Origin: Primulina eburnea
Lineage: Eukaryota; Streptophyta; Magnoliopsida; Lamiales; Gesneriaceae
Direction: 5' to 3'
DNA length: 64,000 nt
Assembly: GCF_022965805.1 (NCBI RefSeq)
Contig: NC_133110.1
Coordinates: 28,330,668-28,394,667, forward strand
Shown: positions 6,121 to 63,521 of the stretch, in pieces
Numbering within the stretch: the stretch's first letter is position 1
Layout: each line of letters opens with the position of its first letter
Notes under the pieces: model-generated
Database searches by the model: none
What the model saw: only the letters and a program-made list of their open reading frames with translations
Told to the model about the DNA's origin: nothing
Position numbers and translations under genes: made by a program

Positions 6121-6138
<18 letters not shown>

Positions 6139-6139
6139 T
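6121..6139 (-). promoter_or_regulatory. TATA run of the truncated gypsy LTR
   Basis: An alternating TA run follows a GT run, about 43 bp downstream (minus sense) of the palindrome array. The arrangement matches the TATA box at 39917-39926 in the intact element. Confidence 0.6.
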
Positions 6140-6181
6140 GCATGTTTCAGCCATGTGGCTCATCTCTTTCACTTGCACGTC

Positions 6182-6420
6182 TCGCGCATATGCGCGACCT
6201 CAACCGGCGCATATGCGCGAGACCTACTGGTCTCAGCAGTTTTCCTCTCAGCATCTCGCGCATATGCGCGTCATCCTCTGGCACATATGCGCGAGTTCTC
6301 TGGAGTTGACATTGTCAAGTGCACATGCTCGCGTATATGCGCGCACCTCCTTCGCGCATATGCGCGAAGTTCTCTGCCCAACTCGCGCATATACGCGCAT
6401 CCTGGTGGCGCATATGCGCG
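6182..6420. repeat. Palindrome array, eight copies of TCGCGCATATGCGCGA
   Basis: Eight copies of a 16-bp perfect or near-perfect palindrome have centres near 6189, 6212, 6263, 6286, 6336, 6359, 6390 and 6413. The intervals are 23, 51, 23, 50, 23, 31 and 23 bp, so there are four pairs at constant 23-bp spacing. The array lies in the LTR upstream of the TATA run. It is rich in CpG, unlike its surroundings. Confidence 0.92.
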
Positions 6421-6549
6421 AGGGGTACTGTCCTCGCACATAATTCACGTCTTTCTTCGTCTTTCTCAGTCCGATCCTCTCCGTCTATAATCACATCAAT
6501 TATCAACAAATCATTTGAAATTATAATAACAAAATTCTCGGACATTACT

Positions 6550-6800
6550 GAAGGGGAGACGTAGGAGCATTTGAAGACTCCAAACATCCATAAACTCCGT
6601 GTGTTCTAGTTGATTACTTATTCAGTTTTCACAATATTCTACACTGAGTATTCAATCTATATTTCAGTCTATTTCCGTACTATAATCAGTTGACTGATTT
6701 ATATTGACATACAAGATTTCTAGATCAGTCATATACAAGACTGATTCATACTTAAAAAGATCTAAAAAAAACTGAGTGTTTATTCAACCCTCCCCCTTCT
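6550..6800 (+). mobile_element. Copia LTR fragment
   Basis: The segment beginning GAAGGGGAGACGTAGGAG aligns with the reverse complement of 24420-24465 within the solo LTR at 24111-25546 (shared GACGTAGGAGCA, TTGAAG and ACATCCATAAA). It is therefore the 3' part of a related LTR in plus orientation. The CAGTTGACTGAT-type words that follow are also typical of that LTR. The far boundary is unclear. 6801-7012 shows nothing I recognise. Confidence 0.5.
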
Positions 6801-7012
6801 GAACATTCTGACTATGTTAACCAATCCTATCAATTCTAAACGATGAGATTGGATTCTGAGATCTATAGCGATGGAACCAATTAAAACAATAATTTCTCAA
6901 ATGTTTCTACAGGACCCGACGAGTTGTCAATATACTAAAAAACTCACGACATTATAAAGAAGAGTATGTCTATGGCTATATTAATCATTGAAGGAACTTG
7001 AGTGCTAACTGC

Positions 7013-8079
7013 TGATCTAGAAAACTTGCATTGTGAAATCCTCAGTATAAAGTATATAAAATTCAAGCTCGATATGATCACAAGTGCACGATGTTAAGTA
7101 ATAATATAGTGTCACGAGTACGAGTAACGTTCGTCCAGAGACTGTATTTCACTGATATTGTTTTCAACTATGTTTTCTTTATTTCCGTGATTAACTACAG
7201 TACTTAAATGAATAAATAGTTGAATGCAAACAAACAAGATGAAATAAATATTTATAAATCAAATGGGAAATTAATTTATTGGGAATATCGATTCACCTAT
7301 CCCTAGTTATTTTCACTAATTAATCTTGACTATTGTTCATTTCTTTCGACCGAATTCCCGAAATGATTAACAAATTTTCTCGAGCTATATTGCAAAAATT
7401 CGACACGATGAAATAATTAAAAATCTTTAAATATTTATCAACGGTGAATTGCATGCACGAGAAATTTCCTTCTCTACTCGTGCTGAGGCGGTCGAGAATT
7501 CTTGCCCTAGCACGAGGTGTTCTGTCCATTTGGTTATTTTTCAGCATCTTATGCTGGGGTGTTCGAGAAATCTCGCTCTAGCTCGAGGTCCTCTGTTTCG
7601 ACTTAATTTCTTTATCTCATCACACTGGTCTGCCTCAACGAATTTCAACATACATTTCATTAAATAATGCACAAAGCTAGTTTTTGCACATCACCTCGAA
7701 GTTTATACACTATGATCTTTCATCGATTTGAAAACGTGTGTTTGTGTAATGTTGGTTCGAGCATCATGCATTTCCACAGTAAAAAATTTCAAAGCTGTAA
7801 GAGACTTCAATCAGCATGTCGGTGTAAGTATCCCTCTCTCACATCCATCTTCACTAATTACCGATTCGTAGCACAGATGGTTAGGAATTGTTAGGCATAA
7901 ATCAACACTAGATAGGGGGTACTTGAATAAGCAAAAATGGGAAAAGAAAAGGAGACAGTGGTGTATTATTGTTGCACATGTAGATTTTTCATCTGATTTT
8001 CTTCAACTCCATACATCTCTGTCCTTTTTAGCATAGGAATAAAATTTAATTCTTTTAATTGGCTCCCCTGCACCTTACA
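7013..8079 (-). mobile_element. Athila-type 3' LTR (right boundary tentative)
   Basis: 7013-7255 aligns with the 5' LTR remnant at 14976-15242, including a GTACGAGTA-rich stretch and an AACAAACAAGATGAAATAAA stretch, so this is an LTR of the minus-strand Athila element. The right end is uncertain because the mate is truncated. CTTACA at 8074-8079, followed by pyrimidine-rich DNA (a possible polypurine tract on the minus strand), is one candidate. 8080-8264 is non-coding. Confidence 0.6.
7480..7584. repeat. Inverted-motif pairs in the Athila LTR
   Basis: GTGCTGAGG (7480-7488) faces CCCTAGCAC (7505-7513). A second, more diverged set follows: ATGCTGGGG (7551-7559) faces TCTAGCTC near 7577-7584. 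Half-site centres are spaced about 25, 46 and 25 bp. The same motif set occurs at 9576-9674 inside the element. A TATA-like TGATAAATAT (minus strand, 7431-7440) lies 40 bp downstream. Confidence 0.7.
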
Positions 8080-13407: not shown

Positions 13408-13409
13408 GT

Positions 13410-37515: not shown

Positions 37516-37605
37516 CCCGTTCATAATTTAACGGGCTGGTTGGTCCCCGTTCATAATTTAACGCTTTCCAACCACGATCTAACCCGTTCATAATTTAACG
37601 GGGCG
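37516..37605. repeat. CCGTTCATAATTTAACGG repeats in the LTR
   Basis: Three close copies of CGTTCATAATTTAACG with complementary flanks (CCCGTT...AACGGG) lie 30 and 37 bp apart, plus a weaker fourth near 37640. The same set is at 3650-3735 and 53756-53842. They lie downstream of the presumed start site and could form RNA hairpins. Confidence 0.65.
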
Positions 37606-38091: not shown

Positions 38092-38207
38092 TACACGGAC
38101 CCCGTGTAGGGGTACGTGTACGGGTCCGGGTAGACTCTGGAAATTCGTATTTTTGAAGAAAAAAGGACACGGACTCCGTGCCGGGGTCCGGGAAGGGGTC
38201 CGGGTAC
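38092..38207. repeat. ACACGG dyads and GGGGTCCGGG repeats in the LTR
   Basis: TACACGG-ACC-CCGTGTA is centred at 38100 and ACACGG-ACT-CCGTGC at 38174, followed by two GGGGTCCGGG repeats. On the downstream (left) side lies an extreme A/T tract (37995-38088). Confidence 0.7.
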
Positions 38208-38440
38208 CCTCTGTCTTTGCAAATTCACGAAAATTCGCTAACTTAACCTTTCACCCATTCCATCCAAGCTTAAGGACCATGAACCAACACCTCTAGACTC
38301 ATCCTAAGATGTTATTACATTGATTCAAACCCATAAAAACGCCCCAAACGTCCCTAAGCATCAACAATTAATTCCAACACAACAATAACTCGTAATTAGG
38401 CATCGTTTCACTTCCTACGACTTCTATTACATCCCAAGCC

Positions 38441-38445
38441 AAACC
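38441..38445. repeat. Target duplication AAACC, left copy
   Basis: It matches AAACC at 47117-47121. The uninterrupted site is visible in the other LTR near 54634. Confidence 0.9.
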
Positions 38446-39916
38446 TGTGGGGACCCGGGCTCTAATTCTTTATCTTGGGATTAAATGGATCAATAATATA
38501 AAAAGTGGGTCAAATTTTCGCTTTTTAACATTCAATCAAATGTTACTAATTAAGCATAAAACATATATCTATTTTATTACATCGGCATAATATACAAACA
38601 TAGGATACAACATTTCTTGTTTTAGTCCATCCTCTGTAAACTAGTAGTGAAATACAATACAAGATAAAAGTAACTCTACTAGTCCATCTGCTAGGCCCGT
38701 GATCACCACGCTATGTCCATCGCTCATCTCTGTCGTGACCCAGATCCTGCCCCACCTGTTGTTATGCACACATACAGACATAACAACAGCCGGAAAACCG
38801 GTGAGAACAAATCCCAGTATAAACATGTATACATGCAATAAAACAATCTAAACATGAAACATGCTAATATGAATGTCATTCATATATAATCATGCAATGC
38901 GAGTCTAATCATGTCTAGATGCGACTCGACTAAAACTCTAGGGATCCCGTTGTGAATAAGACGTCACTGGCTGTCACCTACCCTACCAATCGAGGTGCTG
39001 TACGTCTTATTCCTAGACTTCGGCCTGATCTGTATCCGCGTCTACAATAGGGGCGGTGATCTTCCCCTAAGCTGAGATATCGCCGAACATCTAGTAGTCT
39101 GCCTGATCTCCAGACTGCCCTATCTTAATGCATGAATACAAAATCTGTAAACAAGCATAATGCAATGCTACACGATCTGTAAACAAAGCATAGCAAGATC
39201 TGCATACAAATTCTATAAACAAATCTATAACAATCATAATCATATCAAGGTATGAACAATAAAACAAGTATGTGATTTTGGTTGGGAAACTCAAATGTGA
39301 TCTTATTTGAGTCGTGATTCCCCAAACAAAACATGTACTATACCTTTCGTCGCACAATCGCTGTCACAGTCGTCCAGACGAATCTGAAATGGAAATGTTG
39401 ATACACAATCTATCAATCTCTAATCTAAATCAACACATAACCAAGTCACTACGTGATCTCAATAAAATCTGACGGCATAACGACGTAATTCTCGATACCG
39501 GTCAATCCAATTCTCAACCAATATCAACATTATCTTATTCTCAATCATATACACAAAACCATACTCACAATCGGTACAGCTTACATCTAAACATGCTGAA
39601 ATTCATAGGAAATGCATACGATATCATTTCTTTGTTCCGTTTTTGATTACAAACTCATAATCTTCACCAGAACAACTATCTACAATCATAATAGCATTTC
39701 CCTTACATGAAATTCCTAAAACATGTTAGAACTGAATACAAAGTATACCCTTTTGAAGCTTTCGATGCAAGGAACAATAATCTCCACTCGGAATACAATT
39801 TGGATGGCTAAATCTTGAGAAAACTAACTTGAAAGCGTGAAAACCTTGAAGCTTATGGGAGGAAATCTCGTTTCTGAAAGCTGGAAATGAAGAATAAGTC
39901 GACTCAGCATCTTTAT

Positions 39917-39926
39917 GTATATATAC
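39917..39926 (-). promoter_or_regulatory. TATA box in the 3' LTR (5' LTR copy at 46694-46703)
   Basis: GTATATATAC lies 49 bp downstream of the dyad array on the minus strand. The 5' LTR copy would drive the genomic RNA. Confidence 0.75.
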
Positions 39927-39974
39927 TATGCCACATGTCACGTTTAGAAGGAGAGTGGATTTCTCGGAAGTATG

Positions 39975-40202
39975 ACCGCGGGTGCGGTAACTCTAGTAGC
40001 GCGGGTGCGCTATGGCTTCGGCAGAACTATTATTTTTCACAAGTGATGACCGCGGGTGCGGTCATATAACTACCGCGGGTGCGGTCTCAGCACCGCGGGT
40101 GCGGTCTAGTTCTACTGCGGGTGCGGTGTGGGTACGGGAATGTTACAAATTTCTACTCATTGCACCGCGGGTGCGGTGCTTGCCAGACCGCGGGTGCGGT
40201 CT
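39975..40202. repeat. Dyad array in the 3' LTR, eight copies around ACCGC-GGGT-GCGGT
   Basis: Centres are at 39981.5, 40004.5, 40055.5, 40078.5, 40098.5, 40120.5, 40170.5 and 40193.5, giving intervals 23, 51, 23, 20, 22, 50 and 23. The GGGT loop is constant. Arms extend with complementary changes: ATGACCGC/GCGGTCAT (40046-40065), TAGCGC/GCGCTA (39997-40012), GCACCGC/GCGGTGC (40162-40179), AGACCGC/GCGGTCT (40185-40202). Confidence 0.93.
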
Positions 40203-40339
40203 TGCACATCTAAAATTTCATATTTTCCCGCATCGTTTCGCCCCGTCTGTTCTTGCATTTCGTATTCAACTACCTCCAACAATCTCAGGCATTACATTTC
40301 TTAATTTCTATCTATTCATATTCAATCTAGGGCATTACA

Positions 40340-40354
40340 TTTCTCCCCCTCTAA
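40340..40354 (-). other. Polypurine tract of the Tekay-like element
   Basis: The minus strand reads TTAGAGGGGGAGAAA directly before the 3' LTR start. It primes plus-strand DNA synthesis. Confidence 0.9.
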
Positions 40355-40437
40355 GACATAAGTTCGTCCTCGAACTGAATAAATCAATCAAAGTATTTAA
40401 AACAGCATTACTATCTAAAACTGAATAAATACTTACA

Positions 40438-43400
40438 TCATATAAATAGCTCGGGGTGTTTCTGTCGCATATTTGCTTCTGTCTCCCATGTCGCTTCTTC
40501 GATGCCATGACGACTCCACTGAACTTTCACAAGTGGAATAATCTTTGTTATGAGCTTCTTTTCTTTCCGATCAAGAATCTGTATCGGTTGTTCCACGTAG
40601 CTCAAAGTCTGATCAAGTTCAGCTTCGTCAGGTTGAATGACATGAGAAACATCTGGCATATATTTTCGCAACATTGATACATGGAACACGTCATGTATCC
40701 CGGATAGAGAAGGAGGAAGTTCAAGTCGATAAGCTCGATCGCCAATCTTCTCAAGAATCTCGTAAGGACCAATGTATCGAGGAGATAGTTTCCCGCGTTT
40801 GCCAAATCGAACAACGCCTCTGAATGGGGAAATTTTCAAGAATACTCTATCTCCCGCCTCAAATACTAACGGTCTACGTCTGATATTGGCATACTTTGCT
40901 TGTCGATCTTGTGCTGTCTTCATCCTCTTCTGAATCACTTTTACCTTCTCAGTCATGTCACGAATCATGTCTGGCCCAAGTTCTGGTACTTCTGAAACGT
41001 CATCCCAGTATAGCGGAGATCTGCACTTCTTGCCATACAAAGCTTCAAACGGTGCCATCTCGATACTCGTCTGATAGCTATTAATGTAAGAGAATTCGCA
41101 AAGAGGTAGGGAATCTTGCCAACTAATGCCAAAATCTAGCACAACGGCTCTCAACATATCCTCTAATGTCTGGATAGTCCGTTCTGACTGTCCGTCTGTC
41201 TGAGGATGATAAGCAGTACTCAGGTGTAATGTCGTACCTAAGGCCTGCTGTAAACTGTGCCAAAAGTGTGAAGTGAATCGTGGATCACGATCTGATACGA
41301 TAGACTTCGGCACTCCATGCAATCTGACTACCTCTCGAATATAAATCTCCGCCATCTGATCCTGTCTATACGTCATTCTGTATGGGATGAAACATGCAGA
41401 TTTGGTCAGTCTGTCAATAATAACCCAAATCGCATCACAGCCCTTGGATGATCTAGGTAACTTCGTCACAAAATCCATGGAAATGTGATCCCATTTCCAT
41501 TCTGGAATGGATAAACTCTGAAGCAATCCACCAGGCTTCTTCCTCTCAGCTTTCACCTGTTGGCAGTTCAAACACTTAGACACAAATTCGGCAATGTCTG
41601 ACTTCATTTGTTTCCACCAGAACTGTGTCTTCAAGTCATTGTACATCTTCCTGCCACCCGGATGAATGCTGAACCGACTACAATGTGCCTCTGTCAGAAT
41701 CTGCTGTCTCAAATCTGCAACATCTGGCACAACTAGACGGTTATTCACGTACAACACATGATCTCGTACCTGATATTCTGATACATGCCCTGATCTGACC
41801 ATTTGGATTGATCTTTGCACATTCTGATCAGTTCTTTGTGCTTCCTTGATCCTCATAATCAAATTGGGCTCAACTTGGATCGTAAAAAGTCGTAGTGGTT
41901 TACTATCTGTATCAAATTCTAATCCAGATGTACAGCAATTTTCAACTAACTTGTTAACACCTATCGTCGATAAGGACAGAGAACATACCTTACGACTCAA
42001 GGCATCTGCTGCTGCATTTGACTTCCCTGGATAATATTTGATTTCACAGTCAAAATCTTTCAAAAGATCAAGCCATCTACGCTGCCTCATATTCAGTTCT
42101 GATTGAGAGAATAGGTACTTTAGGCTCTTGTGATCAGAGAATATCTCAAATTTTTCGCCGTAGAGATAATGACGCCAAATCTTTAATGCAAATACGATAG
42201 CCGCCAATTCCAAATCATGAATGGGGTATCGTACCTCATGTGGCTTCAATTGTCTCGAGGCGTATGCGATCACATGGCCTCGCTGCATAAGAACACATCC
42301 CAAACCTCTATGAGAAGCATCAAAATATACAACGAAATTACCTGTACCTGAAGGTATCGTCAATACTGGAGCACTAGTCAGTCTTTTCTTCAATTCAACA
42401 AAGCTAGACTCACACTCCTCTGACCAAACAAATGGTGCATTCTTTTGTGTCAATTGAGTTATCGGCTTGGCAATACTGGAGAAATCTTTGATAAATCTTC
42501 TGTAGTATCCGGCTAAGCCCATGAAACTGCGTATTTCTGGTACAGAAGTCGGTCTCGACCAACTGATCACAGCTTCCACTTTACTTGGGTCAACAGAAAT
42601 ACCATCTCCAGAAATGATATGCCCCAAGAATACAACTCGATTCAACCAAAACTCACACTTTGACAATTTAGCATACAGTCGCTCGTTCCACAACGTCTGC
42701 AAAACAATTCTGAGATGCTCTGCATGCTCATTTCTGTTCTTTGAATACACCAAAATGTCATCAATGAAAACAATGACAAATTCATCTAGATATCTCTGAA
42801 ACACTTGGTTCATCAAGCCCATAAATACCGCAGGAGCATTGGTTAAACCAAAAGGCATGACAATAAATTCGTAATGTCCATACCTGGTTCGAAATGCTGT
42901 CTTTGGTATGTCTATATCTCGAACTCTGAGCTGATGATATCCAGAACGCAAATCAATCTTCGAATACACGGAGGATCCCTGCAACTGATCAAATAAATCA
43001 TCGATCCTAGGCAAAGGATATTTATTCTTGATCCTTGCCTTATTCAGCTGCCGGTAGTCTATACACAATCGCATCGAACCGTCTTTCTTCCGCACAAACA
43101 GCACCGGAGCGCCCCAAGGAGATACACTAGGTCTGATATATCCCTTGGCTAGAAGATCTTCTAATTGTGCTTTCAATTCTTTTAGTTCGATGGGTGCCAT
43201 CCTATACGGGGCTCTCGAAATAGGGACGGTACCTGGTGTAAGATCAATACTGAAGTCTACCTCACGAACCGGAGGTAATCCTGGGATCTCATCTGGAAAA
43301 ATATCTGGAAATTCCCGCACTACTGGTATATCTGCCAATGCCGGGCTCGACTTCTGCATATCTACAGCATAAATAAAGAAACCATCCGCTCTTTTTTGCA

Positions 43401-44973
43401 ATAATCTGTTCATAGTAAGAGCCGAAATCAAGGGAATCCGAGATCTGGAACCCTTCCCGTAGAATTTCCACTCGTCTGTCATCTCGGGTCTGAATCTGAC
43501 AATCTTGTGGAAACAATCCACGGTAGCTCTATACTTCGTTAGCATGTCAATACCGACTATACAATCAAAATCAGCTAGACCCAACACTATACAATCTAGG
43601 TCAATCTCATGCCCCTCAAACTGTAGAATGCAATGTCTAACCGTAGTCACAGATATCAATCCACTTCCCAACGGAGAATTAATAGACACAACATCTAGCA
43701 AAGACTCAACAGGCAATGAATGCATCAATGCAAATCGTTCTGAAATGAATGTATGCGATGCACCTGTATCTATCAAGATATAAGCAGGATAACCATAAAG
43801 AGAGCAGTTACATGCTATAACATCATCTGGTGCATCCTGTGCTTGCTCCTCTGTCAATGCAAACACTTGGGCCTGTTGCCTCGGAGATTGAGTCACAGTC
43901 TGACTACCTCGCCCTCTGGGTGGAGTCGATGCTGGTGGAGGCTGAAAAGAGTGAACCGATGATGCCTGCCGCTCAAACTGAGGTACGGAACCGGATGCTC
44001 TTCCACTCTGGCCTTGCTGTACGCCTCTCTGTGGACAGACTTTGGTAAAATGTCCCGGTTGCCTACAAATATTACATCGGCCTGTAACTCCTTGGCACTG
44101 TTCAGTCGCATGCCTACCTCCACAATTATTGCAATATACACCTGAAGTCCTTGAACTTTGATCAAAACCACTCTGTCTGGATCCGCTGGAGCTTGACGAA
44201 CTGCTCCCAGGTCGCTTAAAATGTTTCCCCTTCGCCTTCAGCTGTTCTTTGCGTCCACTACTACTACCACCACTTTCGAATCGAGGAGGAGGAACTTGGG
44301 ATGGAGGTAGTGGTGGTCTCGGACTCGGTGCAACATACGGAGCACTCCGTTGTCTCAACAATCCTGCTTCTGCACCTTTGGCTCGATTCAATGCATCCGA
44401 GAAATTAGCGGGTCTCCCAGTATTGACCAACGTAAAGATATCTGGATTCAGGCCATTTATAAACTGATCTGCCATGGCCTCATCATTTCCTGAAACATGA
44501 GGTGCAAAACGAAGCAAAGAAGAGAATTTGGCAACGTACTCCTCAATGTTCAATTGCCCTTGCCTCAGATTGGCAAATTCTGCACCTTTATCCTTGCGAT
44601 AAGAGATGGGAAAGAAACGCTGATAGAATTCCGTCTTGAATACCTTCCACGTAATCTCGGTACCCCGCTGCTCTAAAGCTCTCCTAATGTTCAACCACCA
44701 ATTCTTGGCTATATCTTGCAATTGATGGCTAATGAGCTTTATTCTCTTCTCGTCACTGTACTCCAAAGAGTCGAATAGCATTTCAATGTCCTCAAGCCAA
44801 CTTTCGCACTCGATGGCATTCTCGGTACCTTTTAATGTGGGAGGTCGAAAGGATTGGAATCGCTTCAGCAACGTCTCCATAGGGGTCGCCGTAACATCCA
44901 TAGGATCTCCGGATGTGCTCCCCTGTTCTGGTGCTGCTGGTCGTAGAGGTACGGCTGCTCTTCTAGGAGGCAT
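40438..44973 (-). CDS. Intact gypsy gag-pol polyprotein, 1511 aa
   Basis: A single frame starts [10 protein letters not shown] about 230 bp after the primer site and ends 98 bp before the 3' LTR. Residues are approximate. The gag capsid is at 50-205. Zinc knuckles are at 281-293 ([13 protein letters not shown], one residue short) and 300-313 ([14 protein letters not shown], canonical CX2CX4HX4C). Protease is DTGAS at 402-406. RT is at about 600-790 with active site FIDD 736-739. RNase H has D885, E922, D947 and D990. Integrase zinc ligands are H1097, H1104, C1134 and C1137, and catalytic D1167, D1228 and E1264 have the D-60-D-35-E spacing. A chromodomain-like end ([16 protein letters not shown], about 1483-1498) follows. 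It makes virus-like particles, copies its RNA and integrates the DNA. No catalytic residue is missing, so it may be functional. Confidence 0.97.
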
Positions 44974-45205
44974 ATCTAATAATCCAAAGGATTAGTATAC
45001 AACATATACCACCGTCTCAGCCATCCTCTAGTCAGTTACCTCTGATCTAGAATCAGTTCTGATTCAGTTTATCACATGCTGAAAGAAATCAAACACAAAC
45101 AACATGTAATAGGAAAACAATAATCATGCTAGCACATCATCAAGCAAGGAAGAAGACTCGATCTACCCCGCTCATTCTATTCTATCTCAGTCTATAGAAC
45201 CTACT

Positions 45206-45217
45206 GCTCTGATACCA
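45206..45217 (-). other. Primer-binding site, tRNA-Met type
   Basis: The minus strand reads TGGTATCAGAGC, an exact match, five bases from the 5' LTR. Confidence 0.92.
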
Positions 45218-45222
45218 CCTGT

Positions 45223-47116
45223 TGTGGGGACCCGGGCTCTAATTCTTTATCTTGGGATTAAATGGATCAATAATATAAAAAGTGGGTCAAATTTTCGCTT
45301 TTTAACATTCAATCAAATGTTACTAATTAAGCATAAAACATATATCTATTTTATTACATCGGCATAATATACAAACATAGGATACAACATTTCTTGTTTT
45401 AGTCCATCCTCTGTAAACTAGTAGTGAAATACAATACAAGATAAAAGTAACTCTACTAGTCCATTTGCTAGGCCCGTGATCACCACGCTATGTCCATCGC
45501 TCATCTCTGTCGTGACCTAGATCCTGCCCCACCTGTTGTTATGCACACATACAGACATAACAACAGCCGGAAAACCGGTGAGAACAAATCCCAGTATAAA
45601 CATGTATACATGCAATAAAACAATCTAAACATGAAACATGCTAATATGAATGTCATTCATATATAATCATGCAATGCGAGTCTAATCATGTCTAGATGCG
45701 ACTCGACTAAAACTCTAGGGATCCCGTTGTGAATAAGACGTCACTGGCTGTCACCTACCCTACCAATCGAGGTGCTGTACGTCTTATTCCTAGACTTCGG
45801 CCTGATCTGTATCCGCGTCTACAATAGGGGCGGTGATCTTCCCCTAAGCTGAGATATCGCCGAACATCTAGTAGTCTGCCTGATCTCCAGACTGCCCTAT
45901 CTTAATGCATGAATACAAAATCTGTAAACAAGCATAATGCAATGCTACACGATCTGTAAACAAAGCATAGCAAGATCTGCATACAAATTCTATAAACAAA
46001 TCTATAACAATCATAATCATATCAAGGTATGAACAATAAAACAAGTATGTGATTTTGGTTGGGAAACTCAAATGTGATCTTATTTGAGTCGTGATTCCCC
46101 AAACAAAACATGTACTATACCTTTCGTCGCACAATCGCTGTCACAGTCGTCCAGACGAATCTGAAATGGAAATGTTGATACACAATCTATCAATCTCTAA
46201 TCTAAATCAACACATAACCAAGTCACTACGTGATCTCAATAAAATCTGACGGCATAACGACGTAATTCTCGATACCGGTCAATCCAATTCTCAACCAATA
46301 TCAACATTATCTTATTCTCAATCATATACACAAAACCATACTCACAATCGGTACAGCTTACATCTAAACATGCTGAAATTCATAGGAAATGCATACGATA
46401 TCATTTCTTTGTTCCGTTTTCGATTACAAACTCATAATCTTCACCAGAACAACTATCTACAATCATAATAGCATTTCCCTTACATGAAATTCCTAAAACA
46501 TGTTAGAACTGAATACAAAGTATACCCTTTTGAAGCTTTCGATGCAAGGAACAATAATCTCCACTCGGAATACAATTTGGATGGCTAAATCTTGAGAAAA
46601 CTAACTTGAAAGCGTGAAAACCTTGAAGCTTATGGGAGGAAATCTCGTTTCTGAAAGCTGGAAATGAAGAATAAGTCGACTCAGCATCTTTATGTATATA
46701 TACTATGCCACATGTCACGTTTAGAAGGAGAGTGGATTTCTCGGAAGTATGACCGCGGGTGCGGTAACTCTAGTAGCGCGGGTGCGCTATGGCTTCGGCA
46801 GAACTATTATTTTTCACAAGTGATGACCGCGGGTGCGGTCATATAACTACCGCGGGTGCGGTCTCAGCACCGCGGGTGCGGTCTAGTTCTACTGCGGGTG
46901 CGGTGTGGGTACGGGAATGTTACAAATTTCTACTCATTGCACCGCGGGTGCGGTGCTTGCCAGACCGCGGGTGCGGTCTTGCACATCTAAAATTTCATAT
47001 TTTCCCGCATCGTTTCGCCCCGTCTGTTCTTGCATTTCGTATTCAACTACCTCCAACAATCTCAGGCATTACATTTCTTAATTTCTATCTATTCATATTC
47101 AATCTAGGGCATTACA
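45223..47116 (-). mobile_element. 5' LTR of the Tekay-like element
   Basis: It is 1894 bp, the same length as its mate. ORFs seen twice in the window (for example 39091-39357 and 45868-46134) are simply this LTR duplicated. Confidence 0.95.
46752..46979. repeat. Dyad array in the 5' LTR
   Basis: It is identical to the array at 39975-40202, shifted by 6777 bp. This copy lies upstream of the promoter that would make the genomic RNA. Confidence 0.93.
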
Positions 47117-48368
47117 AAACCCGACCCGAACGAACCACCAAATAACACCTAAATACATCTCGTAACATATATGAATGCAGTAGCACAAGCCCGGCGATGT
47201 CCAACAAAGCCTGCAACAAATAACTTCAAGAACACATTTTACATAAAAGTCGCAGCTTGAGCAGTCCCACGAAAAACGTCATAACTCACTCAATTTTCAT
47301 CCAAAAATCTCGAATTTTATATCAAATCGAAGGCATCGAAAAGTTCTACAATTTTCTTGTTGAAAGTTTTCTCAAAATCCCGACAGAAAAATCACAGTTT
47401 TCAACAGAACATTAAGTTACGAGATTTCAGATCTAAAAATATATCAAACGCATTCAAACCATTTTCCGCTCAAACGACGAACGTCACACATGAGTTTTCA
47501 CGCATAAAAATAACCCAACGCATACTATGACAAGATCGATGCAGAAAGAACAGAATATACGTGCCTTTTGATATTTAAAAATACCGTAACGACGACACCG
47601 AAGCGGAGATGGAGCGAGGCTTGATCCGGGACGAACGTGCCACCGTTTTCTTTGAATAAAATGCAACAAAACCTTGCTGGAATTTAAAGGGAGGGCGGCT
47701 GCTCTATGAAGGAAGAACCCTAGTTTTCTTTTAAAAAAATGAAGTGAAGAGAGAAATAGAATTGTGTGTGTGTATGCTTGTACGTGTGTATGAGTGTGTG
47801 TTAAAATGGGTGTGTGCGTGAGTTAGGAAATAGATTAGGGGAATGATTTGCTAATTAGTAATTAACAATGCTAATCAAGGTGCTAATTAAAATAAATTAA
47901 AAATACTAATTAAAGGGTAACTCACACTAACTTAATCAAACTCCACAATTAAAAATAGTTACACACCAATTTTAAAAGTTTCAAACTCTTAAATCACTCA
48001 ATACATAAATAAGGTTTGAAAATACTAAAACTCTATAATTTATTTAAAATGCCCCATCCTAAATCTTAAAATAAAATACCACATTCTAAATTTTCAAAAT
48101 CGTCACCGGTCTTTTCCTAGATCCCGCCTCGAATAATCGCCTGAAACATGAAATTCGAAAAACATTTTAACGTGCATCACATAAAAATCGATAATTGAAA
48201 CCAATGCATTTAAATCAATCATGCATGGCTAAAGCTCAATTTAACTTAAATGAATGCTTTAAAAATTAAATAAATGCATGAATTAAAATCAGTTAATAAA
48301 AAACATAAGGAATTTAATAACTTGCATGCACGTGGTTCATGTGAATCTCATATTTTCGTGACGTCACA

Positions 48369-50960
48369 ATCTATCCCCCTTAATTTGAATTTCGTCCCCG
48401 AAATTCGCTTATCCTCGATAATCCAAAAGTTAGATTCTTAATTCTAGCATCCCAACGATCCACGCTACCGCTGCGCTACTCTGAATAAAATTAAATCTTA
48501 TGTTGTCCTTACGTCTCTTCAATCCTAATTAAATTGCCTACCAAAAACTTTGTTTGCTAATCACAACTTAAAACGACTTATGGTAACTTAGTTTACTTTA
48601 CTACGACCTTGAATTCGGACTTTTCTCGTCGTTCTCAATATTAGAAATGAAGGTTCAAACTTATCGTATCTTACCTTCTCTATACTATACCTGTAATGTC
48701 AATGACCTATTACATTAGCATTTATGCAGTCCAACCTAAAAGGTCTTAGCACCAATGGTTACTGATCAACTTCCATCCTCAGCAATACACTTAAAAGTTA
48801 AACATTATCTTAACCTCATAATAATATTGGCCTACACTCCATGAATCGGATCTTTCCTTACGACACCAAACTTACGTAACTTAGCTATTTACAAGATCTT
48901 CCCAAATATAAAATTTTTGCCAACCTTTAATTTCGAGTAACCAAAATCCATAAAACTCAACATACACAATGTTGATCTTCTACTTAAATAATAAAATCTT
49001 TCTAGCATCAATCACAAGTTTAAACTATTTTCTTCACGATTACAATATAGTTAAAGCCTAAGACACTTGAACCTTCCTCATTGGAACGAATGTCCCACTT
49101 AGACATATCCCCAATACTCAATTAATTCTAGCGTGTAAAACTTAATAAGTTATCCCATAGTAGCTTTAGACTAACTTTAATAAATCAACTTTACTTATAA
49201 ATCATGGAGTTCTAGAATCCTCATGTCAAGATTTTAGATTTCTTATCCGATAAAAAAACCTTAATATTCGTCCATCGGTAACCCATGTTGAACACATATA
49301 ATTCCCATTTGTTTTTATTTCACCCAAAGTTTTCGTATGAACACATACCCGATAAATTTGAAATTCAACCTTACGCAACCCAAATAGTTTTGGATAACAT
49401 AATTCCCACACACATATTCACTTATTCTCAAGTTTCTTAATAACCTACAAAAATTTCCCAAGACAAGATGTCTACCTCAATTCTTACATACATCTATCGA
49501 GTAACCTAACATCAATCATACCCAACTTTCTAGAAAAATCAAATTCCAACAAAAGTACCTCAACTTACGTGCCCAACAATTCGTTATCTCGATGTCTACT
49601 CTTATAATTTAACTAACTGATCACTTTACCTTAAATTATCATCACGTTAAATTATTAATTTTCCACAACGTTATTTCTCTAAAGCTTAAATTTTCAAGCT
49701 CGAGATTGATTCATCCTACAATATCCTTGATTAACATTCTTTATAACATTATAACGCAGATTATTTCAAGGCTCGGACTATCTTTCCAAGCCTAAGTCAG
49801 CGAGAGCTCCTATCCTTTAAACCATTCAATGCTCACTTATCACTAAACTAGTCCCAAATTTCTTAAAAATTGCAAAATAAATTCCTAATTTCCTCGATAA
49901 TTACTCAACCTTGTCCATAATTTTCGAAAATCCTATAATCACCCATAAGTTCTTGGCGTTCCTAATTCCATCTTATAGATTTCTCGTAACATAAAGTTCG
50001 ATAATTTTAACCTTATTAAACAAAAAATCAATTCTATAACCTCGAAAAGCTACTGATCTTACTCAAATGTTCCTCAAAAGTTCGAACTTAATTTCCAAAA
50101 AATTTCTGAATTTGCAATTTGACCCTTAAAGTTCTCGAACTTACATTTTTGGCCCTACAACTCTTCAAAATTTGCATTTCCGGTCGCCAATAAAATCTTC
50201 GATTTTAGTCTCATTAAACCTTAAAATCCCCGAAACTCGGAATTTAATCCCAAACAATAACTTCGAAACTAGTCCCTTAGGATTTTTATCTTTGCACTTA
50301 GGTCCTGAAACTATTGGTCATTACCACTAGGTCCTTAAAATTCTCAATCGTGCAATTAAATCCTTAAATCCCACTAGGGGAAGCATGCATCCTAAATAAA
50401 TTATACGTATTTATACTTCCAAAGATCGTAGCAGTCTTCGAATCATTAATCCTTACATGAAATCCTCAAAAGTTAACTAAATTACAACCCCGAACCATCT
50501 ATATTTTCTTAGAAATCTATATGCCACAAAAGCATTCATAATTGTCCAGTTTAACTTACGACCCACAAGTAGAACATCGGTATTACTAACCAAAAATCAA
50601 TATGCTCAAATCATTAATAATAATTCGTAACCAATAGTCGAATTATCAAGCATGTCTAATATCACAAAACCAGCATGCATGAAAGTCATATAATTTCACA
50701 TTCGTGTCGTAACATGCAATAAAACTTTAAAGACTCATTCTCAAATCATAACTACAGGCAAACTTGTGCTCTAAAACGTATGTCATGTAAACATACAGGT
50801 GATAGAAATAAAACATGCACATGCTGAAATCATGACTTGATGCTTACTGCTTAAAAGACTTTAAAACTTTAAAACTTACAGACTTGAGGTGTGACTTCGT
50901 GAGCTTCTTGCGACTGGCAGTAGGCATAACCCTATACAAGAACCTGGCTCTGATTCCAAC
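48369..50960 (-). other. Non-coding internal region of the non-autonomous element
   Basis: The polypurine tract AATTAAGGGGGATAGAT (minus strand, 48369-48385) adjoins the 3' LTR. The primer site at 50947-50958 matches tRNA-Met at 11 of 12 positions. Between them no frame exceeds about 65 codons. 48590-49500 and 50810-50960 align with 303-1215 and 2800-2997 of the gag-containing element. 50090-50390 is a degenerate tandem repeat. Confidence 0.85.
50090..50390. repeat. Degenerate 30-35-bp tandem repeat
   Basis: Successive lines of the form AGTCCCT..AAATTCTCGAA..TTGCA can be read about nine times, for example at 50092, 50135, 50270, 50302 and 50330. Copies are strongly diverged and some extend to 49850. 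Confidence 0.6.
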
Positions 50961-53900
50961 TGTAACGTACCATACTTTTCATACTCAAAATTTGCGGAAA
51001 AATTAAAAATTTTCTTAAACATAAAATAACATTCAAAGTTTGCCACAAAAATATCCCAACCAAGTCCCCCATAAGACATGGCGGTTCAAAGTACTACAAT
51101 AAAATTTGCTCACAAAAGTTTTGCTCAAAGTATTTCCCTCGAAACAAGAAATCAGAGTAAATTAATATTTGCGTAAAAACATAAACTTTGCGGTCCTCGG
51201 GTTAGCCTCCCGCTCAGTCCAAGCCTGCTCCTTGGTCGCCACCTCATGTCTCCTCATCAACATACTCACCTGCATCAATCAAGTCTAGTGAGTCTAAAGA
51301 CTCAACACGTATAAACTGGAAATAACGAGTAATACGTAATAAAACCACATGCAACTTGAAAATATGACATACATACTAGAAACTTGAACTTGTCATAAAC
51401 TTGAATATACGTACATACATACTTAGACGTGCCACTTGAAAGGGGATCGGTTACGGTGACCGGAAGCGCAACGGAAGTTAAAAAATTTGATTTTTACAAG
51501 AAAAATTTCGGCCACCATGAGGATAATGTGTAGCAAATACAATAAACACAAAATGACATTCATAGTGTGTTAAGAAATGTACCTATCAATCTCTTGAGAT
51601 TGATGATGGCTCCAACTTAGTTGATATACAACTAAGCTCTTGATGGCAAGACAATCTACAAGCTTCACCTTGTTCTTGAATCTTTCCTTCAAAATTAGGC
51701 CCACCACCAACTAGCTAGAACCACCCTAATTTTGCACTAGAAAAATTAGAGTATTTTTCATTGAGAAGTGTAGGCTTTCATCAACAATTGAAGAAAGAAA
51801 AATTGGAGAGGATGAATAGTATTTTCGGCCACTATTCATGCTAGGAGTGAAGGAGAGACATTTTTTTGGTTGTGGGAAAAGTTAAAGTAAAAAAGTTGCA
51901 TGCCAAGCACTGGTTATACAAAAAGTTGTCTCCCAACCTTTCACCTCCCTTGCATGTCTTTCTATTTGGGTTTGTAACAATTACAAAGCCCATGAACTTT
52001 TATTTAAATGTCCCAAACACATTTGAGACCATTTAACCATTGCTTGATTTTACTCAAGCCCACTAGTCTAATAATTATTTTTAATTGGGCTCTACAAGAC
52101 CCAATATTGTTTAATTAATTCAACACTTGAATTAATTTAATTATTTGGACTCTACTAGGCCCACTAGTGTTTAATTAGTTCAACACTTGAATTAATTTAA
52201 TTTAGTCCATAATAATGTTTATGAAAATCACAATTTTCAAATACATTATTTGTTTGGCCAACTTTTAATTTAGGAACACTTCCATAAATTAAAATTTACA
52301 TTTCTCTCATAGAAGTCATACTTCTATTTTTTCTTTACGCTTATAAACTCATTATAAGCCGTTCAACACATTGAACTAATTTCTCCTTTATAGAAGTCAT
52401 ACTTTTAATTTTCCTTACGCTTATAAACTCTTTTATAAGCCGTTCAAAACATTGAACTATTTTACTTCTCAACGGGATCTAGAAAGCTAGTACTTGTGTG
52501 GCCCTCAATGGTTCATTGATACAACTAGCCGTGGGTTCACATCTCCATATGATTCGGACTAAACATGTCTTTATATGAGCATACCCCAATTGCTCCATTC
52601 TTACTTATCAACCCCTTGATAACAAGAACGTCAGAACTCCAGTCTGATAGTACCCAACCAACCATGTTAAACACCTAGGAACATCGCTTACATGATTCCC
52701 TAGGTATCAAATGATAGTGCCTGCAAGAACCATTCAAATATGGTTAGCGTACAGTACGGTCCCTTCAACTCATATATCCCGACCGATTCGACAACCATTG
52801 GTATATCGAGAGTTGCCAATGAATCGATACTATGTTTTATGTCGTAGTTGCATCGATGATGTAATCTATGAAACCCCTTCCATAATTACAACCATACTCT
52901 GGCCAGAGATTTCAACCTACATACACATGATAACACATAGGATATCCATACCCGAAGGTAAGCGGTGAATCCCCGACTACAATGCATCGACTCCTATATG
53001 TTTCGACATGACACCCAACCTTGCCACCTGATGACCCCATAAGAGTCGGTAAACAAGTCAAAGTGAAATGCTAGCACATAGAGTCTCAATGTTGTCCCGG
53101 GTCATAAGGACTAATGGTGTACAACCATAAACTAGGACGTTTCCACTCGATAAGTGAGAACCACTTGGAAAGTCCTTTAATGGAGGGTTGTTCAGTGCAC
53201 TCTACCAGGAGCACCTATCTGCATGCTCGGACATCACAATGTCCCCTACCAATGAAACATGGTACTCACATCGCAGATACTAGTCTCTAACTCGAGCGGC
53301 CTATATCCTTCTTAGTGGCGGCTGAATCGACTAGGAACCGTTTAGAATATACAGTATTAGAAATATGAGTTTCATGATACTCATCATATGAGCATCTCAT
53401 ATTCTTTCTACTATTTGTATATTCAAGGGCTTTATCTATTCAACTAGCATGGGTATACAGATAAAGATGTGCCAAAATAATAATTTCAAATATTACTAAA
53501 ATAAAGACTGCTTATACATAGAGTTTCATTGTGAACACTCGGCCAACACTTGGCTCGACGGGCACCTACTCTAACACCATCAACATAAACTTTTCTTAAA
53601 CATGCTGCATACTTGAACATACTCGAACATACATACTTCATCATTTTGCATAGAGGATGTTTCAAAGCAAGTGACCCATACATAATAAACGTCTGATCTG
53701 ACACACCACAGTACTGGGTTGACAGGGACGTATCCACTGCCACATACATGAGATCCCCGTTCATAATTTAACGGGCTGGTTGGTCCCCGTTCATAATTTA
53801 ACGCTTTCCAACCACGATCTAACCCGTTCATAATTTAACGGGGCGGAGAGGTCCTCGGCCACGTTCACCGACTTCCAAACCCATTCATAATTTGGTCACA

Positions 53901-55885
53901 AGACATTTAGCATACCTCAAAAACTTGAAATATTTTCTTGCACGTCAACATACTTACTTGGTGTGGAGTGATTCGTTGGATCTCGTTTGGGGCCGCTACT
54001 GCACATACTAACATGAATTTAAAAACTTAACTTGCATGTCTTAGACGTAGGTACTCGAGCTCACCACCAAAGTGAATAAGTAGCTTATGACATTCTAGTT
54101 CGCTCCGGACTTGACCTCGTTAAATCATCGTACTAAACCATGACTTGAAAACCCAAAACAAATCCTGTATTTTACATAAATAAATTTTAACCATGGTTCT
54201 AAACCATGATATAGAACCCCGAAGCAATTCCTAAAAAAAAATTTTTTTTTTTTTTAAAAAAAAAATTTTTTTTTTACTTTTTTTTTTTAAAAAGGTGTAC
54301 ACGGACCCCATGTACGGGTCCGGGTAGACTTTGGAAATTCGTATTTTTGAAGGAAAAAGGACACGGACTCCGTGCCGGGGTCCGGGAAGGGGTCCGGGTA
54401 CCCTCTGTCTTTGCAAATTCACGAAAATTCGCTAACTTAACCTTTCACCCATTCGATCCAAGCTTAAGGACCATGAACCAACACCTCTAGACTCATCCTA
54501 GGATGTTATTACATTGATTCAAACCCATAAAAACGCCCCAAACGTCCCTAAGCATCAACAATTAATTCCAACACAACAATAACTCGTAATTAGGCATCGT
54601 TTCGCTTCCTACGACTTCTATTACATCTCAAGCCAAACCCGACCCGAACGAACCACCAAATAACACCTAAATACATCTCGTAACATATATAAATGCAGTA
54701 GCACAAGCCCGGCGATGTCCAACGAAGCCTGCAACAAATAACTTCAAGAACACATTTTACATAAAAGTCGCAGCTTGAGCAGTCCCACGAAAAACGTCAT
54801 AACTCACTCAATTTTCATCCAAAAATATCGAATTTTATATCAAATCGAAGGCATCAAAAAGTTCTACAATTTTCTAGTTGAAAGTTTTCTCAAAATCCCG
54901 ACATAAAAATCACAGTTTTCAACAGAACAGTAAGTTACGAGATTTCAGATCTAAAAATATTTCAAATGCATTCAAACCATTTTCCGCTCAAACGACGAAC
55001 GTCACACATGAGTTTTCACGCATAAAAATAACCCAACGCATACTAAGACAAGATCGATGCAGAAAGAACAGAATATACGTGCCTTTTGATATTTAAAAAT
55101 ACCGTAACGACGACACCGAAGCAGAGATGGAGCGAGGCTGGATCCGGGACGAACATGCCACCGTTTTCTTTGAATAAAATGCAACAAAACCTTGCTGGAA
55201 TTTAAAGGGAGGGCGGCTGCTCTATGAAGGAAGAACCCTAGTTTTCTTTTAAAAAAATGAAGTGAAGAGAGAAATAGAATTGTGTGTGTGTATGCTTGTA
55301 CGTGTGTATGAGTGTGTGTTAAAATGGGTGTGTGCGTGAGTTAGGAAATAGATTAGGGGAATGATTTGCTAATTAGTAATTAACAATGCTAATCAAGGTG
55401 CTAATTAAAATAAATTAAAAATACTAATTAAAGGGTAACCCACACTAACTTAATCAAACTCCACAATTAAAAATAGTTACACACCAATTTTAAAAGTTTC
55501 AAACTCTTAAATCACTCAATACATAAATAAGGTTTTAAAATACTAAAACTCTATAATTTATTTAAAATGCCCCATCCTAAATCTTAAAATAAAATACCAC
55601 ATTCTAAATTTTCAAAATCGTCACCGGTCTTTTCCTAGATCCCGCCTCGAATAATCGCATGAAACATGAAATTCGAAAAACATTTTAACGTGCATCACAT
55701 AAAAATCGATAATTGAAACCAATGTATTAAATAAATCATGCATGGCTAAAGCTCAATTTAACTTAAATGAATGCTTTAAAAATTAAATAAATGCATGAAT
55801 TAAAATCAGTTAATAAAATACATAAGGAATTTAATAACTTGCACGCACGTGGTTCATGTGGATCTCATATTTTCGGGACGTCACA
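50961..55885 (-). mobile_element. 5' LTR of the non-autonomous element, split by a copia solo LTR
   Basis: 50961-51436 and 53577-55885 form one LTR. It matches the other copy (36866-48368) almost base for base. A/T tracts at 54231-54292 and ACACGG dyads at 54298-54376 correspond to those at 38 kb. Confidence 0.88.
51437..53576 (-). mobile_element. Copia solo LTR
   Basis: On the minus strand it starts TGTTAGAGTAGGTGCCCG and ends CCCCTTTCA, 2140 bp, related to the LTRs at 30830, 34950 and 22285. Flanks CCACT and CCATC are an imperfect target duplication; the uninterrupted site is seen at 37336 (GTGCCATCAAC). It contains two copies of a TTATAA...GTTCAA/TTGAAC dyad pair near 52341-52376 and 52421-52457. 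No internal region remains. Confidence 0.82.
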
Positions 55886-58693: not shown

Positions 58694-58739
58694 GAAATTT
58701 TGTCCTCGAAATTAAAACTCACCGAATAACTCGGGGTAA

Positions 58740-60912: not shown

Positions 60913-61448
60913 CTTCTCTAACCAGAACTCACACTTACTGAACTTTGCGAATAGCTTGTGCTTTTGTAAGGTCTACAAAACTGCGGTCAGATGTTTGCTG
61001 TGATCCTCTTGATTCTTTGAGTAGACGAGAATGTCGTCTATGAATACTATCACGAACTGATCAAGATACGGCTGAAATACGCGATTCATGATATCCATGA
61101 AGATCGCTGGCGCATTCGTCAAACCGAACGGCATCACAAGGAACTCGAAGTGGTCGTACGAGTCCTAAAAGAAGTCTTGAGAACATCGGCATCTTCAATC
61201 CTCGGGAGTGGGTATTTGTTCTTTACTGTAGCCCGGTTCAATTCCCGGTAATCAATGAAGAGCCTCATCAAACCATCCTTCTTCTTCACAAATAAGATTG
61301 GCGCGCCCCATTGTGAAAAACTTGGGCGAATGAACTCCTTGTCGAGAAGTTCCTGAATCTGATTCTTGAGTTCTGCCATCTCTGTCGGTGCTAATCGGTA
61401 CGGTGTTTTAGAGATCTGTGCGGTACCTGGCATAAGCTCAATAGAAAA
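60913..61448 (-). pseudogene. G2 reverse transcriptase with internal deletion
   Basis: 61134-61433 has [44 protein letters not shown] and [10 protein letters not shown], then jumps straight to [11 protein letters not shown]. The roughly 27 residues normally between, which carry the first catalytic Asp (the [11 protein letters not shown] block of the intact copy), are deleted. A frameshift follows. The palm with [14 protein letters not shown] is still readable at 61000-61060. Confidence 0.85.
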
Positions 61449-61990
61449 CTATACTTCCCGCACAGGTGGCATACCAGAGACATCATCAGGAAACACGTCT
61501 AGAAAGTCCCTAACAATTGGGACATCGAAGGCTGACTGACTGGGTGCTTCGAGAACAGATATAAAAGTCGCTAAAAACGCTCGACGCCCTCTACGCATAA
61601 GCTTCCTAGCCTTGACACAAGGTATTATACGCAGTAAATGAAAGTACCTGTCTGGTTCGAAAAGCGGTCGGACTAGCACAGATTTCCATTGGAAATCAAT
61701 CAAAACCCTGTTCTTCAATATCCAGTCCATCCCCAGAATGATATCAAACTCTGGCATCAAAAATATGATAAGATCCGCATAGACAAGATTACCATGAAGC
61801 TCGAGGTCTATGTCTGGGATCACATTAGTAGCTGCCAGCTCCTCTCTAGAAGGCAATACTACTGAATATGCTATGTCTAGCCCAATGGTCTCGACCTTGA
61901 GGAAATTTGCGAAGGTCACTGAAATGAATGAATGAGTAGCCCCTGAATCTATCAAGGCATTTGTAGCTGAACCAGCTATAAAAATTCTCC
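61449..61990 (-). pseudogene. G2 aspartic protease and linker
   Basis: The frame reads FIAGSATNALIDSGATHSFIS (DSGAT active site near 61945) and MPEFDIILGMDWI, then a linker ending PIVRDFLDVFPDDVSGMPPVREV, the usual junction to RT. Upstream, 61990-62107, no gag is recognisable before the G3 LTR begins. Confidence 0.85.
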
Positions 61991-63226
61991 CTAAAATGTT
62001 GGAACATCAAACTGAACCCAATAATTACTAGAACTAACTAATAGACATGTGAAGGTCAAAGTTCTTCTAATCTAAACTCTGAAAGCCACATTGATTAGAA
62101 CATACAATGTAGTGACCCGTTCCAGAATCACCTACTAATTGAGAACTAAGCATGCAATTAACTTAATTAAAAAAAATCAGAGTTATATGCGGAAAAGGCC
62201 AAAGAATCAAACGTTATACAACCCAATCGAAATCTAGAATAACCCAGAATAAAAATATTCGGTACAACCATATCGAATCAAATGGAAAACACTGAAAACT
62301 AAACCAACCAGCTACTCAACGTCCTCCTCCTGCTCCTCCTGAGCCATCCAACCTGAGGCCTGCCCCGTGGGAATGGGGTGTCCACGCATAAACAAAACCG
62401 AGGACGTGAGCGATAAGAACGCCCAGTACAAAAGTATGAGTATACAAACCTATATGAAATGCACATGCTATGATATGATACCAGGGTAGTCAAGAAACAG
62501 GAATCACAAAGGATCTCAAAATGCTCAGTCTAGAGGCGCCAAGTGGATAGTGCCGCGCGGTACACCTCTGGGTCACTGCATCCACTACAAGACAGACGTG
62601 GACCTAAAATGTCCCGGACCACCGAAGCCCTCCCGACCCGTCGGCCACTGTGTACTCTCGGTGTCCATGCGTCCACAAGACAGGGCTGAGCGGCCCCAAG
62701 ATATAGCTTATCTCGAAAGAGATACAGCTCAACAGTGAAGGCTATCTCGAAGGAGATACGGCTCAACGTGAAATGCAATGTGCATTAATAAACGTGACAT
62801 AATAGCATGCATCAAATGACATATATCAATGCACCACATAATCATGCAACACATATATGAATGTATACTCAACCAGGATATCTCGGATAGTACTTTCGTA
62901 CCTCTATCACAGCAATCCTAATCCACTGGAACAACCAGACAACAGGTCTAGAACAAGCCTACGCATCAAAAGCATATCCCAATCAATACTACCATGCTCG
63001 ACTAGCAAAACCAGTACTCCCTAGTACTACCAAAGGTTTAGGGTTTACCTTCGTCCGTCGACAGCCCTTTGATGTCGATTGCCTCGTAACTCAGACGTCG
63101 CTACGCTACCACTCCTGGCAGCTCCTGGCTATCGCTCGACCAACAACTAACCCTAGAACCTTCCAAATCTCTCACTAAAGACTCAATCTCAAGAAATTGG
63201 CAAGTCAAAATGAGGAAATCCGAGCA

Positions 63227-63237
63227 CTATTTATAGG
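63227..63237 (-). promoter_or_regulatory. TATA box of the G3 LTR
   Basis: The minus strand reads CCTATAAATAG, only five bases from the edge of the dyad array. Confidence 0.75.
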
Positions 63238-63241
63238 CCAT

Positions 63242-63466
63242 GTTCGGATCCTCCGAACAACACTTCGGAACGTCCGAACGCTACGTGTCCATTGGCTCTT
63301 GACAGCTCATGATCGGATCCTCCGATCATACACTTCGGACCGTCCGAACGTGCATGGAAAATGACGTGTCGATCCACTCTTGACACCTCATGTTCGGATC
63401 CACCGAACCTACTTCGGATCGTCCGAACTCTTCGGTGCTTCCGAACCAACTTCAGACCTTCCGATC
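63242..63466. repeat. Dyad array in the G3 LTR, eight copies
   Basis: Centres are at about 63250, 63271, 63319, 63341, 63400, 63420, 63438 and 63458 (intervals 21, 48, 22, 59, 20, 18, 20). The main form has arms GTTCGGA/TCCGAAC. At 63309-63329 the arms are ATGATCGGA/TCCGATCAT, a paired T-to-A and A-to-T change with longer symmetry. The last copy is degraded. Confidence 0.9.
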
Positions 63467-63521
63467 ATGATTAATCACCATTAGTCCGTTGATTACCCAA
63501 TTCGGCATTCGGGCTACTACA

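Follow-up and report, generated by a model that had tools for sequence, protein, structure and literature searches.

Paired dyad arrays of narrow spacing and changing sequence in Ty3/gypsy long terminal repeats of Primulina eburnea

How is one layout of short inverted repeats retained in transposon promoters while the repeats themselves are replaced? The question is raised by a 64,000-nucleotide stretch of the Primulina eburnea genome (contig NC_133110.1, positions 28,330,668 to 28,394,667; the window in what follows), in which the long terminal repeats (LTRs) of three Ty3/gypsy retrotransposons each hold an array of eight dyads, different in sequence from one array to the next (Table 1). An earlier note on this DNA had reported three families with eight dyads each, and a motif scan reproduced all of their coordinates and intervals. 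All three array-bearing elements lie on the minus strand, the order in the sense direction being LTR start, array and TATA box. Eight dyad copies were observed per LTR, whereas 300 dinucleotide shuffles of each LTR gave 1.3, 2.2 and 1.2 on average and at most 6, 8 and 5, so that a shuffle of the second LTR did reach eight by this loose count; the genome-wide counts given below are clearer.

We consider the paired-dyad arrays to be probably enhancers for a dimeric host DNA-binding protein, bound as two dimers, and put the probability of this reading at about 0.6. Arrays, narrow pair spacing, the distance to the TATA box, a kept CGC-N4-GCG core and the replacement of spacers, flanks and linkers between close relatives are established here at the level of sequence.

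Array layout across related elements

The genome (812 Mb, 1224 contigs) was surveyed with a 217-residue integrase/chromodomain query, which gave 150 scored matches out of 32,675 candidates. The best 30 of these (96-100% identity, the window element included), chosen by integrase/chromodomain similarity alone, were taken with a flank of 1.5 kb that includes the 3' LTR promoter. The expectation that family members should carry the arrays was borne out in all 30, a scan for two cores finding 6 to 15 dyads per locus; a motif-blind dyad detector found at least seven copies in 27 of the 30 and three or four in L030, L041 and L042. By motif type the loci divide into 14 of M2 (spacer ACCC), 11 of M1 (ATAT), four of M4 (CCGA or CCGG) and one of M3 (TCGGA-N3-TCCGA, in L020). 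M1, M2 and M4, here called CGC types, have the common core CGC-N4-GCG, which is kept within one subclade while the spacer and outer flanks switch. The exact M1 dyad, TCGCGCATATGCGCGA, occurs at 9,352 places in the genome and its reversed control at none.

A second, less biased sample was drawn by matching the chromodomain residues EATWE with a degenerate codon pattern, which is present at 7,951 and 7,876 places (7 and 5 for the controls). Of 100 places listed in order along a single contig (C1), the first 40 gave arrays in 11 of the first 30 and six of the next 10, or 17 of 40. When the chromodomain peptides at the 40 sites were read by eye, arrays accompanied type A3 (..QWQRRG..) at 13 of 14 sites, type A2 at four of six and other types at none of 20, with L053 and L079, which are somewhat A2-like, tallied among these others. 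On a pol tree of 55 loci the arrays fall in two subclades, the A3 subclade grouping with array-less subclades, and the array loci require at least eight changes of motif. One of these loci, L020, combines pol of the CGC subclade with a TCGGA array and a 15-bp TATA distance, a mismatch which suggests that promoter modules move via recombination.

By their sequences, the array-bearing families are related Ty3/gypsy elements of two branches, and to call those of the window unrelated, as the earlier note did, was wrong. The third element and the 38-47 kb element share 65% identity over 104 residues at their integrase/chromodomain ends. The 6.1 kb LTR has a 58-bp segment that matches the 45-47 kb LTR copy at 76% identity (E 7e-7); no such hit came from the 38-40 kb copy, which differs by three letters.

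Spacing within pairs is sharp genome-wide at the distances counted (21, 22, 23 and 25 bp for CGC-N4-GCG, places being tallied irrespective of LTR membership) and is common to motif types whose arrays cannot be aligned. CGC-N4-GCG pairs number 1,137 at 21 bp, 51,139 at 22 bp, 45,219 at 23 bp and 96 at 25 bp, against 54, 651, 3,316 and 167, respectively, in reversed controls. Pairs of TCGGA-N3-TCCGA occur 8,450 times at 20 bp and 2,686 times at 22 bp, with none in controls. Pair-to-pair distances between 30 and 100 bp (n=42), taken from the first 50 listed places each of the 22- and 23-bp CGC-N4-GCG pairs, fall 25 times at 70-75 bp, seven times at 53-54 bp and seven times at 62-66 bp, so that the repeat of about 72 bp proposed earlier is the main mode and not the sole one. 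Over 36 loci the longer gaps differ by motif, being mostly 31 bp in M1, mostly 50-52 bp in M2, 42-43 and 49 bp in M4 and 48-49 bp in M3.

The position of the TATA box follows the motif type. In counts that include near-duplicate copies, 23 of 31 CGC-type loci have their first TATA[AT]A at 53-59 bp past the centre of the last dyad and two have it at 19 bp, while the other six have none within 200 bp; in TCGGA-type loci it is at 15 bp in ten of ten. CATGCA is found 43-52 bp past the last dyad in 25 of the 31 CGC-type loci and in none of the ten TCGGA-type loci. Where present in CGC-type loci (L016-L045) it sits directly before the TATA box, about 46 bp from the last dyad. CATGCA is the RY element of seed B3 factors, and its place before the TATA box hints at embryo or seed expression.

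Within this layout the sequence is exchanged. Arrays of different CGC motif types (27 loci, 222 pairs) have a median identity of 0.48, equal to the shuffled value of 0.48, while that of pol is 0.91; the 300 bp past the promoter are 0.64 identical (shuffled, 0.52; single pairs up to 0.89). Different motifs were found with pol segments up to 97.3% identical, a figure from a loose measure with cheap gaps (0.79 for shuffled arrays) whose array identities were discarded. The proposal that geometry is kept while sequence changes is thus strongly supported by the sharp spacing and the unalignable arrays; the further idea that the sequence is free to change holds in part, the CGC-N4-GCG core being kept.

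Elements and other repeats of the window

Table 1. Features of the array-bearing elements in the window; intervals are distances in bp between successive dyads.
Feature	Position	Strand	Basis
LTR of the 6.1 kb family, solo or truncated, high end degenerate	5636..6549	-	ends read from sequence
TATA box and adjoining CATGCA of the 6.1 kb LTR	6132..6144	-	predicted from consensus
Array M1, eight TCGCGCATATGCGCGA-like dyads, core CGC-ATAT-GCG, intervals 23-51-23-50-23-31-23	6182..6421	-	motif scan
3' LTR of young element, target-site duplication AAACC	38446..40339	-	LTR comparison, ends read
TATA box, 56 bp from last dyad centre	39920..39925	-	predicted from consensus
Array M2, eight dyads ACCGC-GGGT-GCGGT (sense ACCGC-ACCC-GCGGT), intervals 23-51-23-20-22-50-23	39975..40200	-	motif scan
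Single open frame: gag, protease, reverse transcriptase, RNaseH, integrase, (weak) chromodomain	40438..44991	-	open reading frame and Pfam
Primer binding site TGGTATCAGAGC	few bases past the 45223 end of the 5' LTR	-	
5' LTR of the same young element	45223..47116	-	LTR comparison, ends read
TATA box of this LTR copy, 56 bp from last dyad centre	46697..46702	-	predicted from consensus
Array M2 in second LTR copy, identical eight dyads and intervals	46752..46977	-	motif scan
3' LTR of third element, which runs off the window	62108..63521	-	ends read from sequence
TATA box TATAAATAG, 15 bp from last dyad centre	63230..63235	-	predicted from consensus
Array M3, eight dyads TTCGGA-N3-TCCGAA, intervals 21-48-22-59-20-18-20	63243..63465	-	motif scan
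Purine tract beside the 3' LTR of the third element	63522-63540		
End of integrase/chromodomain frame, third element	63687..63998	-	

In the 6.1 kb LTR, beside which no target-site duplication was seen, the centre of the last dyad is 52 bp from the TATA box and 45 bp from CATGCA, a layout as in the 45-47 kb LTR. The LTRs of the 38446-47116 element are 1894 bp long and have three differences between them; being two LTRs of one element, the 38-40 and 45-47 kb copies count as one observation and not two. Proteins were scanned against Pfam, and the C-terminal end of the frame of this element gave a weak match to the Chromo family (E 5.5e-4; 20.3 bits, with a curated cut-off of 25.1). The large frame takes up 4554 of the 4883 bp between the LTRs, and no second large gene was found, ATG, GTG or TTG frames upstream of this frame and in the 5' LTR reaching at most 118 amino acids. 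Its domain order, from gag through protease, reverse transcriptase and RNaseH to integrase, is the one expected of Tekay/Del chromoviruses. From the TGTAATG..CC start of its LTR and its initiator-Met primer site we presume the element to belong to Tekay, and take the window elements to be probably of the same kind as Del. A search of viral contigs with a piece of reverse transcriptase found no relative.

Other repeats lie nearby. A second element (36862-55885) has LTRs of 2.8 kb, the matching pieces of which are 94-99% identical, and one of them is split by the 38-47 kb insertion. ACACGG-N3-CCGTGT dyads, which the earlier note had fitted to the same plan, do exist, two to each of three LTR copies of another family (4172/4244, 38093/38167 and 54299/54361), with spacings of 72, 74 and 62 bp that vary within the family, and they are single dyads and not pairs. 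A scan for 10-mers that allowed up to two mismatches in each did not recover the Athila intervals of that note, 25-46-25 and 25-39-25. Positions 1804-2080 form a GC-rich block whose short repeats have periods of 20, 30 and 60; it contains CGC-GATG-GCG dyads at a spacing of about 20 bp, and TATATAA occurs near 1730, on the downstream side of the block in the minus sense. Between 32996 and 34795 there are direct and inverted repeats of 200-400 bp with many GGGCCTCGGCCC and CAGTTGAGCTAGT dyads.

Elsewhere in the genome, locus L011 holds a CGC-type array together with five TCGGA-type dyads (gaps 21, 46, 22 and 21), the two arrays lying within 1.6 kb in one 3-kb stretch. L050, which lacks an array and is sister to the TCGGA subclade, carries one TTCGGA-TTT-TCTGAA shortly before its TATA box in the presumed U3 (the unique 3' region of the LTR), possibly a founder dyad.

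Competing explanations

Since the element RNA includes U3 at its 3' end, the dyads might be selected there as stem-loops acting in packaging, in stability or as a source of small interfering RNA (siRNA), the last as argued for palindromes of maize Sireviruses. Each of the three window arrays gives a far better fold than its dinucleotide shuffles (z -5.8, -6.3 and -10.3), their centres of 3-4 nucleotides would suit loops, and excerpts of two studies describe Sirevirus palindromes as drawing small RNAs (PMC10760457, PMC5311732). Stems of RNA should, however, show more G-U than A-C mismatches, and the sense strands of 36 loci, five near-duplicate loci excluded, gave 64 G-U against 66 A-C over the arms and 4 against 13 in the core. 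This lack of an excess disfavours RNA stems, well as the window arrays fold. Compensatory change beyond chance is confined to one M2 position (11 of 2000 permutations) and, with CGC types pooled, to two positions (10 and 2 of 2000), and neither a narrow pair distance nor a nearly fixed TATA distance would be expected of stems; we judge selection for hairpins unlikely.

The pairs might instead have no current function, having arisen once and spread through tandem duplication and element copy number. Copy number does swell the counts, and array units resemble duplicates in the TCGGA type (M3) and M4, where equal-length linkers inside pairs are 0.67 and 0.58 identical; duplication accounts for more in these two. 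Linkers fall, however, to 0.45 in M1 and 0.34 in M2, and across 18 and 17 distinct listed 23-bp pairs to 0.34 and 0.28, near random, while dyads within an array, selected by their core in a way that raises the measure, are 0.93 identical in M1 and M2 (0.85 in M3 and 0.77 in M4) and most pairs stand at 22-23 bp. With linkers so far diverged at an equal distance, recent duplication alone fails to explain the geometry of M1 and M2. The pair geometry has moreover survived the motif changes counted on the pol tree, with the TATA distance kept per type, and we regard a history of copying alone as quite unlikely.

Decidedly improbable, in our estimate, is selection on the spacing of CpG and not on the motif, acting through methyl-CpG readers or protection by a bound protein. 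The main dyad types have CpG in both arms, the window arrays are CpG-rich (observed/expected 1.30-1.56, with 0.84-1.21 in the remainder of their LTRs), and the 5' CpG islands of Del elements are, in the excerpted account, proposed as a moving target of silencing (PMC4029996). Letters outside CpG, namely the outer A-T and C-G pairs of M2 and the N4 spacer, are nevertheless kept within arrays, and the CpG distance varies by type, 8 versus 9 bp.

An element-encoded anti-silencing protein with family-specific targets, on the pattern of VANC of VANDAL elements, whose motifs (YAGTATTAY and AGTTGTCC/AGTTGTAC) are placed by excerpts of two papers in fast-evolving tandem repeats of non-coding DNA and differ among related families (PMC5735166, PMC10398659), resembles the present case in its short, tandemly repeated, diverging motifs but is very improbable here, given the size of the large frame, the shortness of all others and the different motifs carried beside near-identical pol. 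VANDALs differ further in being DNA transposons that encode their binding protein, and 'palindrom' occurs 0 times in either paper (PMC5735166, PMC10398659); the analogy drawn by the earlier note is weak.

Several points also weigh against the arrays being sites of a dimeric host protein, the inflated dyad identities and the M3 and M4 linkers just described among them. The pair counts are dominated by copies by descent, and the roughly 96,000 pairs are therefore not independent events. Gaps in the fetched loci are less strict than the main distances, with 8 of 90 in M2 at 20 bp, 5 of 90 in M2 at 24 bp and 2 of 26 in M4 at 19 bp. Since the N4 spacer is almost as uniform within an array as the arms, one tolerant protein cannot account for all motif types. 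The covarying dyads of the earlier note hold at one M2 arm position and between CGC types; in M1, M3 and M4 no arm covariation beyond chance was found, and covariation as a general proof of dyad selection was dropped for these three. L050, L064 and L085 have array-bearing chromodomain types and no detected array, two dyads 23 bp apart remaining in L064 before other sequence and 699 bp having been examined in L085. TCGGA arrays have pairs at 20 or 22 bp, another TATA distance and a subclade beside array-less elements; differing from CGC arrays in these three respects, they may have a separate origin. Binding on one face of the DNA had also been proposed, and multiples of about 10.4 bp do match the pooled gaps of the CGC types. 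On distinct gap lengths, however, helical phasing is no better than chance (76 and 83 of 500; 54 of 1000) and TCGGA arrays are out of phase, so that phasing was dropped as a claim.

Known systems and a proposed mechanism

The closest known arrangement is that of Sireviruses, which are Ty1/copia elements. As described in excerpts of PMC2829016, these have palindromic repeats that differ by family and number at least eight per element, with CpG islands, in the LTR upstream of the TATA box, with a CGG-CCG core in all but one of 13 and the TATA box on average 37 bp past the island. The window arrays are likewise palindromic, of eight dyads (six or seven in some relatives), upstream of a TATA box and CpG-rich, and TTCGGA-N3-TCCGAA resembles the Sirevirus Osr9 motif TTTTCGGACWTRTCCGAAAA (PMC2829016). 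The CGG-CCG core occurs in TCGGA-N3-TCCGA, whereas CGC-N4-GCG arrays have a different core; and whereas integrase precedes reverse transcriptase in Sireviruses, it follows it in the window element, the Ty3/gypsy order. In the excerpted Sirevirus account we found nothing on the spacing of pairs, the length of units or the replacement of motifs between near-identical elements (PMC2829016).

Del (Tekay) LTRs are described, again in excerpts, as having a plastic 5' CpG island, the segment most variable in length and sequence, and its place in the LTR matches that of the dyad arrays here; no CpG island was found in the eudicot Del elements of that study (PMC4029996). The paper has no word beginning with 'palindrom' or 'tandem', and no dyads or geometry were found in the excerpts (PMC4029996). 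Among the papers listed by literature searches, no title or opening of an abstract reported paired dyads in Ty3/gypsy LTRs, and five exact motif strings matched a single bacterial paper. Palindromic arrays before the TATA box are already known from Sireviruses and variable CpG islands from Del elements; strict pairing, or motif replacement at kept geometry, was found in neither excerpted account.

On the reading we prefer, the arrays would lie in U3 and the predicted TATA boxes would be in use. Each dyad would hold one dimer; in a pair, two dimers would sit on one face of the DNA, separated by about two helical turns. The protein is probably a host factor, because a further large gene would not fit into the window element and different motifs accompany near-identical pol segments. 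Motif types could correspond to paralogous factors or to one factor with shifted preferences. Arrays likely lengthen and shorten through duplication of the pair unit, and whole arrays are likely transferred between elements by recombination; escape from siRNA-guided silencing would favour replacement of whatever the protein does not read. The LOB domain was considered as a candidate plant factor family, but the search gave no useful result and the family is not claimed.

A wider proposal, which we offer tentatively and consider doubtful, is that both Ty3/gypsy branches may obey a single structural rule, by which two sites for dimers are separated by two helical turns and placed at a set distance from the TATA box, and that Sirevirus palindromic arrays may follow it too. 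Plant retrotransposons of both superfamilies would then depend on one class of dimeric host factor, and motifs might switch as whole arrays between near-identical elements, through the capture of paralogous factors and evasion of siRNA silencing.

The arrays supply a countable geometric rule for LTR promoters, a single genome having about 96,000 pairs spaced 22-23 bp apart and 96 spaced 25 bp apart, and a pair rule so sharp should make the presumed binding protein findable. They also provide a system in which a cis-regulatory module is swapped wholesale between near-identical elements with its layout retained, which bears on the chase between transposons and their silencing.

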